Origin: an uncultured Alphaproteobacteria bacterium
Lineage (GTDB): Bacteria; Pseudomonadota; Alphaproteobacteria; Micropepsales; Micropepsaceae
Assembly (NCBI GenBank): GCA_903837555.1
Contig: CAILUV010000020.1
Location: 1 to 41,780 of the forward strand
Length of the DNA: 41,780 nt
Reading direction: 5' to 3'
The notes beneath the pieces are model-generated. The model saw only the letters and a list, made by a program, of their open reading frames with translations. It ran no database searches and was not told where the DNA came from. Numbering within the stretch: position 1 is the first letter of the stretch; the number at the start of each line of letters is the position of its first letter. Positions 7,179 through 13,926 of this stretch are shown in pieces. Position numbers and translations under genes: made by a program.

Positions 7179-7931
7179 TCAGAGCTTGTAGTTCAGGCCG
7201 ATACGCGCGATGTGGCCGCGATTGTCGAAGCGCACATCGTATCCGGTACCCACGCCGCCGCTGCCGGGGATCAGGCCGACCGGCACGACGTTGCTGCCCA
7301 GGTCGTAATACAGATACTCGGTCTTGATCGACCAGCGCTCGCCGAACATCTGCTCGATGCCACCGCCCGCGGTCCAGCCATACTTGGTGTTGTTGACGCC
7401 GCCGGCAAACTGGGCGACCGAACCCGGCGCCGGGCCGGAGAAGTTGGCCGAGTTGTTCACATTGCCATAGGCCAGACCGCCGGTGCCGTAGAGCATCGTG
7501 CCGCCCCAGGCATAACCCAGACGGCCACGGAAGGTGCCGAGATACTCCAGCTCCTGGCGGAAGACATTGTTGCGCGTGCCGGGGAAGGCAGTGCCGACGC
7601 TGACATTGTTGCGGGTGTCGCGCACATCGGCGCCCTGCAGGTCGGTTTCAACGCCCCAGACCAGATTGCCGTCCTGCCAGTTGTAGCCAAGCTGACCACC
7701 GGCGACGAAACCTTCGCTGTCGAGCTTGGTAAAGGCGGGACGCGCGCCGTCGGCGACGGTGGAACTGTTGACCGCAGCCTGTCCGGTGGTGGCGGCGTTG
7801 GTCTTGCCCAAACCGGCGCCGGCATTCACGCCCGCGTAAAAGCCGGTCCAGGATCCATACATGTCCTGCGCGGCGGCAGGGGAAGCAGCAAACAGCGCCA
7901 CGGCAGCGGCGGACAGAAACAAGCGACGCAT
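7179..7931 (-). CDS. Omp25/31-like outer-membrane beta-barrel protein
   Basis: A 250-residue protein with a clean signal peptide (MRRLFLSAAAVALFAASPAAAQ) and a mature part of alternating aromatic and small residues typical of an 8-stranded barrel. It opens with WTGFYAGVNAGAG, the usual start of the alphaproteobacterial Omp25/RopB-type family. The last strand reads ARIGLNYKL, ending in Leu instead of the more common Phe. The ATG follows AAAAGGAG at ideal spacing. The leader can form a long bulged hairpin that includes most of this ribosome binding site (7940-7980), so translation may be controlled by RNA structure. The gene is monocistronic, with a terminator downstream. Confidence 0.9.
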   Translation of the reverse strand: MRRLFLSAAAVALFAASPAAAQDMYGSWTGFYAGVNAGAGLGKTNAATTGQAAVNSSTVADGARPAFTKLDSEGFVAGGQLGYNWQDGNLVWGVETDLQGADVRDTRNNVSVGTAFPGTRNNVFRQELEYLGTFRGRLGYAWGGTMLYGTGGLAYGNVNNSANFSGPAPGSVAQFAGGVNNTKYGWTAGGGIEQMFGERWSIKTEYLYYDLGSNVVPVGLIPGSGGVGTGYDVRFDNRGHIARIGLNYKL

Positions 7932-7939
7932 TGAATTCT

Positions 7940-7980
7940 CCTTTTGTCAGCGCGATCAGTGCGCTGGAACTAACAAAAGG
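7940..7980 (-). promoter_or_regulatory. Leader hairpin that covers the ribosome binding site of the barrel gene
   Basis: Reading the minus strand, CCTTTTGT (7973-7980) pairs with ACAAAAGG (7940-7947), and directly inside, after a 6-base one-sided bulge, CAGCGC pairs with GCGCTG (7961-7966 with 7948-7953) around a 7-base loop. That makes 14 perfect pairs. The 3' arm contributes AAAAGG of the Shine-Dalgarno AAAAGGAG, 9 bases before the ATG. The geometry suits a thermometer- or protein-controlled switch; function is inferred. Confidence 0.55.
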
Positions 7981-8268
7981 TCAGTTGGGGAGAAGCGTTC
8001 CCGGTTTCAACGCATCGCCGCATGCATCTTGCGCATGCGTGACAATGCAGCCACAGAAATCCACGAGGCGCACAATTACGGCGTGCCATCGCCGCCTTTC
8101 GAACACAAACATAAAGCGAAACGAGAAAGCATTAACTTCAGGCCAACGGTCCAGCAACGTGATGGTGCGAACCCAGCTGTGCACATGGCCTGCCATTCAC
8201 CGCCGAAAGGCGCCCTTGTGCGCCCCCGCATTTGCACGGATATTCCCGCCCATAACCTGGGAGGGATC
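7981..8268. other. Divergent intergenic region between the barrel gene and the epimerase gene
   Basis: The rest of the spacer between two divergent genes must hold both promoters. I see no strong -35/-10 pair. The palindrome-like GCATGCATCTTGCGCATGC (about 8021-8038) is the only other notable structure. No gene is supported. Confidence 0.4.
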
Positions 8269-9390
8269 ATGAAAACCGCACGCTTGGCTGCCGCCTGCCT
8301 GACGCTCTTCACCACCGCTGCCAATGCCGCCACCGCCACGCGCGGCGAGTTTGGTGCGCTGGCTGATGGCACCAAGATCGAGGCCGTGACCCTGGCCAAC
8401 GACAAGGGCATGTCGGCGCGCATCATCACGCTGGGCGCAACGCTGCAGGCGGTGATCGTTCCCGACAAGAACGGGCGCAAGGAAGACGTCACGCTGGGTT
8501 ATGACAAGGCGCAGGATTACCTGACCCGCCCCAATTATTTCGGCGTCTCGGTCGGCCGCTATGCCAACCGCATCGCCAAGGCCAGCTTCGTGCTCGACGG
8601 CAAGACCTACAAGCTCGCCGCCAATGACGGCCCCAATTCGCTGCATGGCGGCACACGCGGCTTCGACAAGCGCGTCTGGACGATTGAAAATGTCACCAGC
8701 GGCCCCGATGCGCGCGTGACACTCAGCTATATCAGCGCCGATGGCGAGGAGGGTTTTCCCGGCCAGCTTCGCGCCACCGTTACCTACACGCTGAACGAGC
8801 AAAATGAGCTGCAGGTCGACTACGGCGCCACCACCAGCAAGCCCACGGTGGTCAACCTCACCAACCACGCCTATTTCAACCTGTCGGGCAATGCGGCGCG
8901 CGACGTGATGGGTCACCTGGTGACGCTGAAGGCCGAACGCTTCACCCCGGTCGATCCCACGCTGATCCCCACCGGCGAACGCCGCCCGGTCGCGGGCACG
9001 CCGTTCGATTTCCGCAAGCCCACCGCCATCGGCGCGCGCATCCGCGACGCCAGCAACGCGCAGCTTCGGATCGGGCGCGGTTATGACCACAACTTCATCG
9101 TCGACGGCAAGGCGGGCGACATGCGCACCGCCGCGATCGTGGAAGACCCCGTGTCGGGCCGCGTGATGGAAGTGCGCGCCACCGCGCCGGGCATCCAGTT
9201 CTATACCGGCAACTTCATGGACGGCACGTACTTCGGCAAGAACAACCGCGCCTATCGCCAGGGCGACGCGCTGTGCCTGGAACCGGGCACCTTCCCCAAC
9301 GCGCCCAACAATCCCGGCTTTCCCAGCGCCCGGCTGAATCCGGGTCAGGCCTATTTCAATTCGATGGTCTTCGCGTTCCGCACCCGCTGA
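8269..9390 (+). CDS. galM: Aldose 1-epimerase (mutarotase), secreted form
   Basis: A 373-residue GalM-family enzyme that interconverts alpha and beta anomers of aldoses such as glucose and galactose. Active-site landmarks: SLHGG with His126, LTNHAYFNL with His200, GYDHNF around residue 273 and catalytic Glu338 in CLEPGTFPN. Residues 1-20 form a signal peptide (MKTARLAAACLTLFTTAANA), so the enzyme works in the periplasm, unlike cytoplasmic E. coli GalM. The ATG follows GGGAGGG. A longer open frame upstream lacks a ribosome binding site and would bury the signal peptide. It ends 3 bases before the convergent opgH stop. Confidence 0.93.
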   Translation: MKTARLAAACLTLFTTAANAATATRGEFGALADGTKIEAVTLANDKGMSARIITLGATLQAVIVPDKNGRKEDVTLGYDKAQDYLTRPNYFGVSVGRYANRIAKASFVLDGKTYKLAANDGPNSLHGGTRGFDKRVWTIENVTSGPDARVTLSYISADGEEGFPGQLRATVTYTLNEQNELQVDYGATTSKPTVVNLTNHAYFNLSGNAARDVMGHLVTLKAERFTPVDPTLIPTGERRPVAGTPFDFRKPTAIGARIRDASNAQLRIGRGYDHNFIVDGKAGDMRTAAIVEDPVSGRVMEVRATAPGIQFYTGNFMDGTYFGKNNRAYRQGDALCLEPGTFPNAPNNPGFPSARLNPGQAYFNSMVFAFRTR

Positions 9391-13435: not shown

Positions 13436-13926
13436 TTCTTCACTCGTCCGACATCAGGCCGGACTGTTTGATATGGGCTAACGCCCATTTGTTTCGTTTC
13501 GCTTTGTGGCGGAGGTCCGGGTTTTTAATCCGGGCCTTGGCTCAGCGCTAGGCGGAGCCCCGCTTACTTTCCGGTGGAGTCACTTCCATGCAAGGAACCT
13601 CCTGTTCGCGGTTTCATCCGCCGTGAGGAAAAATTGCGTCTCGCGCGACGTTCCGGCGCCAGGAAATCCGGTCTCCACCGGATCGATCGCGACACAATCG
13701 CCGCGCAATGGGCGCCTTGGAAAGTAACTGCGTCAATCGCAATCGTTTCTCTCGGCATAAAAACTCTGCGCCCATAACAAGGGGGCGTCAACACGAAACC
13801 GTCATCGAAATCTTTTGTGATAGCAGGCTTTATACACGCGGAACCCATGCGCGATTTCGCGGCGCGCAAAGCAGGTTAGCGCCCCGCCTCTGGCGCAGGC
13901 CAAGCCCTCTGGTTATAGGAGCACGT

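Follow-up and report, generated by a model that had tools for sequence, protein, structure and literature searches.

Leader hairpins in described systems

Hairpins that hold back translation from within an mRNA leader have been described for several genes, and we compared them with a hairpin found upstream of an outer-membrane beta-barrel gene. With Shine-Dalgarno (SD)-sequestering leader hairpins in general, it shares an SD part within the 3' arm and a stem that ends 8 nt before AUG. The fourU and ompA thermometers of Shigella and Yersinia, as the excerpted text of PMC8245352 describes them, likewise combine an outer-membrane gene, an SD inside a hairpin and a U-run opposite. Compared with these thermometers, the U's here pair with AAAA beside the SD core, and the lower helix has no mismatch; the model keeps this helix 0.87-0.94 paired at 47 °C in leaders of 50-60 nt. 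Four U's on the SD core, the mark of a fourU element, were not found in the hairpin, where UUUU lies opposite AAAA just 5' of GG.

ROSE-like elements also carry the SD in a 3'-proximal hairpin, and their anti-SD motif is given as U(U/C)GCU in the extract of PMC3669281. This motif does not occur in the anti-SD arm studied here, CCUUUUGU. Unlike the elements covered in that extract, the hairpin has no imperfect SD pairing, and its gene is not a small heat-shock gene.

Two small-RNA systems of Caulobacter bear on the comparison. The control of ompW by RusT (PMC11005374) concerns the same class of target gene and the same class of organism. The katG leader pairs with the C-rich loop of GsrN (PMC5869019). 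We liken this pairing only to the leader of another barrel gene of the same genome, where an ECF-like promoter motif is followed by a G-tract close to the presumed 5' end of the mRNA; the barrel leader that carries the hairpin has no G-tract.

A perfect hairpin reaches into the SD of the barrel gene

The window is a stretch of 41,780 nucleotides from an uncultured alphaproteobacterium of the Micropepsaceae (contig CAILUV010000020.1). On its minus strand it encodes an outer-membrane beta-barrel protein of 250 amino acids (7179..7931, start ATG 7931-7929), which matched PF13505 (OMP_b-brl) in a profile search (E 1e-14, 55.6 bits, cut-off 28.7). An aldose 1-epimerase gene runs divergently from it on the plus strand, starting at 8269, and the hairpin is located between these two divergent genes.

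Written in mRNA sense (7980..7940, minus), the hairpin reads CCUUUUGU-UAGUUC-CAGCGC-ACUGAUC-GCGCUG-ACAAAAGG. Its fold has 8 + 6 = 14 Watson-Crick pairs, a single 6-nt bulge on the 5' side and a 7-nt loop, exactly the perfect pairs and one-sided bulge that the sequence-only reading had announced. The upper stem-loop, CAGCGC-ACUGAUC-GCGCUG (7948..7966, minus), folds alone at -10.4 kcal/mol, and the whole hairpin at -16.4 kcal/mol. The remaining -6.0 kcal/mol is added by the lower helix, whose 5' arm is the anti-SD CCUUUUGU (7973..7980, minus); the bulge UAGUUC (7967..7972, minus) separates this arm from the upper stem.

The leader ends in CCUUUUGUUAGUUCCAGCGCACUGAUCGCGCUGACAAAAGGAGAAUUCA-AUG, with ACAAAAGGAGAAUUCA-AUG as the SD region of the barrel gene. 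The 3' arm of the lower helix contains ACAAAAGG of this SD (7940..7947, minus), carrying the first part of AAAAGGAG, and a gap of 8 nt (AGAAUUCA) separates the stem from AUG. An SD part within the 3' arm had been predicted from the letters, and it is indeed there.

We considered and rejected a terminator, since no gene lies upstream on the same strand, AGAAUUCAAUG takes the place of a T-run downstream, and the element was not listed in a terminator scan. At the gathering score, Rfam returned only a 16S rRNA and one tRNA across the whole window, and no leader element. Over the leader itself, with E up to 5, the single hit was SNORD66 (E 4.6), which we took as chance.

In the likeliest reading, though one on which we are evenly divided, the hairpin occludes the SD as a stem-loop of the barrel mRNA's 5' leader and lowers translation. 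A start of transcription within the repeat comes second, and chance third. In the proposed mechanism, CCUUUUGU would pair with ACAAAAGG in the lower helix, and this pairing would make the AAGG half of the SD double-stranded and leave AG alone of the core exposed. The ribosome would pay about 6 kcal/mol for opening the lower helix, a cost that would lower the rate of translation initiation, and the lowered rate could then be raised or reduced by some other factor. For this reading we infer a transcript start upstream of 7980 yet not far upstream, lowered translation, and selection for the hairpin.

The stem is rare, but strong folds at start sites are common

To place the stem against chance, we counted stems of at least 14 Watson-Crick pairs with at most one one-sided bulge and at least 4 SD bases. 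When the upstream part was shuffled with its dinucleotides preserved, such stems appeared in 7 of 40,000 sequences, and in 125 of 40,000 when G-U pairs were allowed. Our own prediction script gave 294 genes in 357 kb of this genome, a sample that includes the window. Among them, only the barrel gene itself reached 14 Watson-Crick pairs; with G-U pairs allowed, 7 of the 294 had at least 14. Perfect Watson-Crick helices that overlap the SD zone and span 8 pairs or more were found in 8 of the 294, the barrel gene among them. The sequence symmetry and its rarity are established, and the earlier claim that such symmetry is improbable by chance was borne out, with the caution that these rarity figures are flattering because the stem rule was written after the hairpin had been seen. 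The perfect 14-pair stem, with its 7 in 40,000 shuffles and 1 in 294 genes, argues for masking.

Other measures were less striking. The hairpin ranked 53rd of 294 by energy, and 10 of 200 shuffles of the 71-nt stretch folded equally well or better. The pairing of the SD gave p = 0.10 against its own shuffles, and with leaders of 80 and 120 nt it was at or below the median of the 294 genes. The energy rank and the pairing at these two lengths count against masking. The sampled stretches have 64% G+C, and strong folds at start sites are common there. The hairpin is unusual for the perfection of its helix, not for its predicted occlusion.

In a GC-rich genome, the stem might also be neutral or due to chance and leave expression unchanged, a reading that we judge unlikely. 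The energy rank and the near-median SD pairing in longer leaders would fit it, and at 7 in 40,000 per leader one such stem would be unsurprising among about 2,400 genes, a gene number that we estimated from the size of the genome. However, the 28 predicted genes of the window give an expectation of only 28 x 7/40,000 = 0.005, by a rule shaped on the find, and a perfect stem into the SD occurs at both PF13505 genes found in the genome.

Predicted masking depends on the length of the transcript

In transcripts of 50-60 nt, AAGGAG was predicted to be 0.94-0.98 paired at 37 °C; this predicted pairing in short leaders is established as well. In leaders of 70-160 nt, the model gave 0.66-0.67 for AAGGAG and 0.62-1.00 for GGAG, figures that make masking weaker there and different in kind. 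The best fold of 70-100 nt transcripts used an alternative anti-SD, UUCUCC (7989..7994, minus), which pairs with GGAGAA (7941-7936). In folds of leaders of at least 120 nt, one of them a centroid fold, GCGAUGCGUUGAA (8006..8018, minus) paired with 7923-7935 in a 13-pair helix that covers the start codon. The 161-nt stretch folded better than all of 200 shuffles (z -2.99), a value that belongs to the whole stretch and not to the 13-pair helix alone.

The masking of the SD proposed by the sequence-only reading thus holds in the folds of short leaders but gives way to competing folds at 70-160 nt. It is predicted for short leaders with a transcription start no further downstream than about 7979-7980. 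The pairing of AAGGAG in short leaders favours masking, as do the site between divergent genes and AGAAUUCAAUG in place of a T-run.

Heat had also been suggested as a control, and an RNA thermometer would be in keeping with the four U's of the anti-SD arm and with the omp thermometers known from enterobacteria (excerpt of PMC8245352). In the 120-nt leader, GGAG had a predicted pairing of 0.98 at 20 °C, 0.77 at 42 °C and 0.66 at 47 °C, a fall that speaks for the suggestion. The short leaders barely responded: AAGGAG in the 60-nt leader was 0.95 paired at 20 °C and 0.92 at 42 °C, and across leaders of 50-60 nt it was still 0.92-0.97 paired at 42 °C. The change between 20 and 42 °C equalled the median of the 294 genes (60-nt leaders). 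Moreover, every base of the lower helix is paired, and for the Yersinia ompA element a variant with full pairing was reported to be locked shut (PMC8245352). We find a thermometer highly improbable. The hairpin looks like an ordinary translation brake, one that these results tie neither to heat nor to a small RNA.

Transcription may start inside the inverted repeat

The main rival to masking places the transcription start inside the inverted repeat and takes the 5' arm for the -10 region of a promoter. A start inside the repeat would yield an mRNA with the small upper stem-loop alone near its 5' end, its SD not covered by the hairpin. We regard this as possible, though it is the less probable of the two.

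Two weak promoter-like matches lie on the minus strand; if one of them is used, the start falls within the hairpin and the mRNA lacks the lower 5' arm. The first, GGAAC(8001-7997)-N16-CCTT(7980-7977), was read from the letters, and the pattern was matched as GGAAC-N17-CTTT. It has a single -10 mismatch against the EcfG motif, given as GGAAC-N16-CGTT in PMC7083833. The second, GCTTC(7996-7992)-N16-TGTTAG(7975-7970), came from motif scoring. Its -10 sits 44 nt before ATG, and TGTT is among the most frequent EcfG -10 boxes after CGTT (PMC7083833). Of the 15 sites listed for the motif GCGAC-N16-CGTTA of the other barrel gene and its orthologues, 12 have their -10 at a distance of 41-44 nt upstream of ATG, which also fits a start inside the repeat. 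For starts from 7977 to 7967, the model predicted AAGGAG to be 0.57-0.60 paired, against 0.98 for starts at 7981-7983; with the 5' arm absent, this residual pairing is with other bases.

On the other side, GCTTC-N16-TGTTAG was not significant: 88 of 500 shuffles had an equal best site, and it ranked 38th among 294 genes. These significance figures cover this match and not GGAAC-N16-CCTT. A promoter also leaves the exact complementarity of the arm to the SD region unexplained, and GGAG is predicted to be about 0.75 paired in transcripts that start inside, so that the SD would not be fully open either.

The repeat could instead act as DNA, an operator bound by a repressor. With its 19 bp, the inner dyad CAGCGC-N7-GCGCTG has the size of an operator, but a genome search for the outer repeat, as CTTTTGT-N10..40-ACAAAAG, gave two places only, the hairpin site and C50:4560-4603. 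Because of the 6-nt bulge, the inner and outer dyads do not share an axis. An operator is very unlikely on these grounds.

Translation of an upstream open reading frame could also open the hairpin, since the frame starting at 8089 has its stop codon (7972-7970) inside the bulge. GAAAGG precedes its ATG, and the overlap of stop and hairpin is suggestive, but the codon score of -22.3 is clearly non-coding-like. In the two closest orthologues, L012 and L013, the comparable frames end near -38 and -36, start with GTG (L012) and with ATG or GTG (L013), and encode peptides that are dissimilar by eye. We give this explanation next to no credence. The frame itself (window 8089-7970, minus) spans 39 codons and is Cys-rich.

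Orthologues of the barrel gene are few and their leaders differ

We searched for orthologues of the barrel gene at several taxonomic levels. Across 69 genomes of the genus (own included), matches at E <=0.001 were found in 11, and only 2 others exceeded 50% identity. The 96 genomes of the order, searched at E 1e-20, added no orthologue above 38% identity, and among 385 genomes of the class, matches of E 1e-35 or better occurred in 6, own included. Further searches returned 1 from genome contigs and 134 plasmid records, each below 60%; viral contigs contained no orthologue of the barrel gene.

The leaders of L012 and L013 showed no alignment to the target leader above that of shuffles, and MAFFT gave no usable alignment of the three. 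None of 6 neighbouring window genes was found beside the two orthologues (L110, L111). The 60-nt leader of L013 (54% identity) paired its SD above 194 of 200 shuffles, by a stem with bulges on the 5' side, and this supports masking. For the 60-nt leader of L012, 145 of 200 shuffles paired the SD as highly, which is not above chance. With 120-nt leaders, shuffles reached as high in 139 and 143 of 200 for the two orthologues, and neither was above chance. That L012 stays at the shuffle level, that L013 stands out at 60 nt only, and that the leaders cannot be aligned all count against masking. With leaders so sparse, unalignable and mixed, conservation neither supports nor excludes a function. 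The L013 barrel gene (L111 3078-3820, genome G087) lies in two overlapping frames with a break near codon 140, which reflects decay or a draft-assembly error.

The leader DNA, compared with the 69 genus genomes, gave no sign of conservation, a point in favour of chance: the one non-self match at E <0.001 lies inside a 279-codon ORF of the own genome. Matches at E 0.007-0.1 were present in 15 of 68 other genus genomes.

We also looked at PF13505 genes more widely. In a first set, made of the window gene and 20 relatives, two of them nearly identical, 10 of 21 leaders (60 nt) had p <=0.16, a threshold picked after looking. A second set of 30 was tried; L083 was without a start, and L106 had been excluded beforehand as the same gene as L034. 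The same threshold was passed by 5 of its 29 leaders, no excess over the 18.4% of 294 background genes. This counts against masking at the target, and we rejected SD masking as a trait of the PF13505 family. The near-identical L041 and L044 (the latter from Methylobacterium bullatum) have a 10-pair stem over the SD, G-U included, with an SD pairing of 0.91 that 10 and 7 of 200 shuffles matched.

The other PF13505 gene of the genome has a related leader arrangement

The genome, 98.4% complete, has two PF13505 matches, the window gene and one at G000:C64. The leader of the latter (L078/L114, G000:C64:9869-10435, minus; relatives L115-L134) ends in CGTTAGGAA-CUUUGCAAG-GGGGGCAU-CUUGCAAAG-GGACUGAC-AUG. 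Here, a perfect hairpin reaches into the SD directly after a GCGAC-N16-CGTTA motif, and the leader beats 200 of 200 shuffles in fold energy. This second perfect stem into an SD argues for masking at the window gene, in a comparison of two barrel genes made post hoc. As a whole, however, the SD of the other gene is 0.62 paired (p 0.345), not above shuffles, which argues against it.

Orthologues of this other gene at E <=1e-20 were found in 21 of 68 other genus genomes. The motif GCGAC-N16-CGTTA occurs in 15 of 21 leaders (own included), and one more has an 18-nt spacer. In many of these leaders a hairpin around a G-tract follows right after the motif, with a 3' arm able to reach into the SD. 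The stem around the G-tract averaged 5.7 Watson-Crick pairs, against 3.1 in shuffled flanks (n=20; the highest mean in 500 rounds was 3.9), by our own measure and among related leaders that are not independent, L128 and L133 being near copies. It was individually at p <=0.05 in 10 of 20 leaders and not in the other 10. L134 has no G-tract, which leaves 20 leaders in the stem count; L135 (34% identity) was excluded from the motif, stem and promoter-scoring counts, L133 from the promoter-scoring count, and L117 was dropped as misaligned. The stems vary in sequence, for example UGUUGCGA/UCGCAACA in L127 and CUUUGCAUG/CAUGCAAAG in L115.

RNAalifold predicted zero pairs from a MAFFT alignment of 14 of these leaders. 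For 9 leaders selected as alignable, 94.3% of the cells were paired, and covariation was not above shuffles (66 of 500 as high). A covariance model built from the 9 (R1) found 10 of 69 genomes, at one place each and always at the leader of the other barrel gene; 9 of these 10 are those that built it. Against the window, R1 gave no match at E up to 5, and we rejected a sequence link between the two leaders.

By analogy, the G-tract stem brings to mind a site where C-rich small RNAs such as GsrN might dock. This leader merits closer study than the window hairpin does. One scheme could cover both PF13505 genes: an ECF-type promoter would start the mRNA at a stem-loop that reaches the SD, and translation would be opened or shut when a protein or small RNA docks on the loop (the G5-G6 tract in the other gene), with the window gene as a diverged case that has lost the G-tract. 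We hold this scheme to be quite unlikely. Alone, the window hairpin would be one more leader hairpin tuning an outer-membrane protein; it gains some weight from the related arrangement at the other PF13505 match. If both hold, the outer-membrane proteins of an alphaproteobacterial genus would have a point of post-transcriptional control that is open to testing.

Variant leaders of the other barrel gene were seen in L125, L126, L130 and L132, with GTGGGG and CCCCAC (CCCTCAC in L130) around the SD. In the best folds of L125 and L132, and not of L126 and L130, these are paired and the SD lies in the loop.

In the same genome, a gene at L052:12768 (plus, C74) that looks ClpB-like by eye from its sequence carries GCGGC-N16-CGTTAG at 42 nt upstream of its start; of the 294 genes, it matches the motif of the other barrel gene best. 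A PQQ-dehydrogenase-like gene, also named by eye (L061, minus, start at reverse-complement position 13629), carries an uninterrupted 13-pair helix with one G-U pair; this helix closes a smaller stem-loop, covers the SD and ends just before ATG, with an SD pairing of 0.99.
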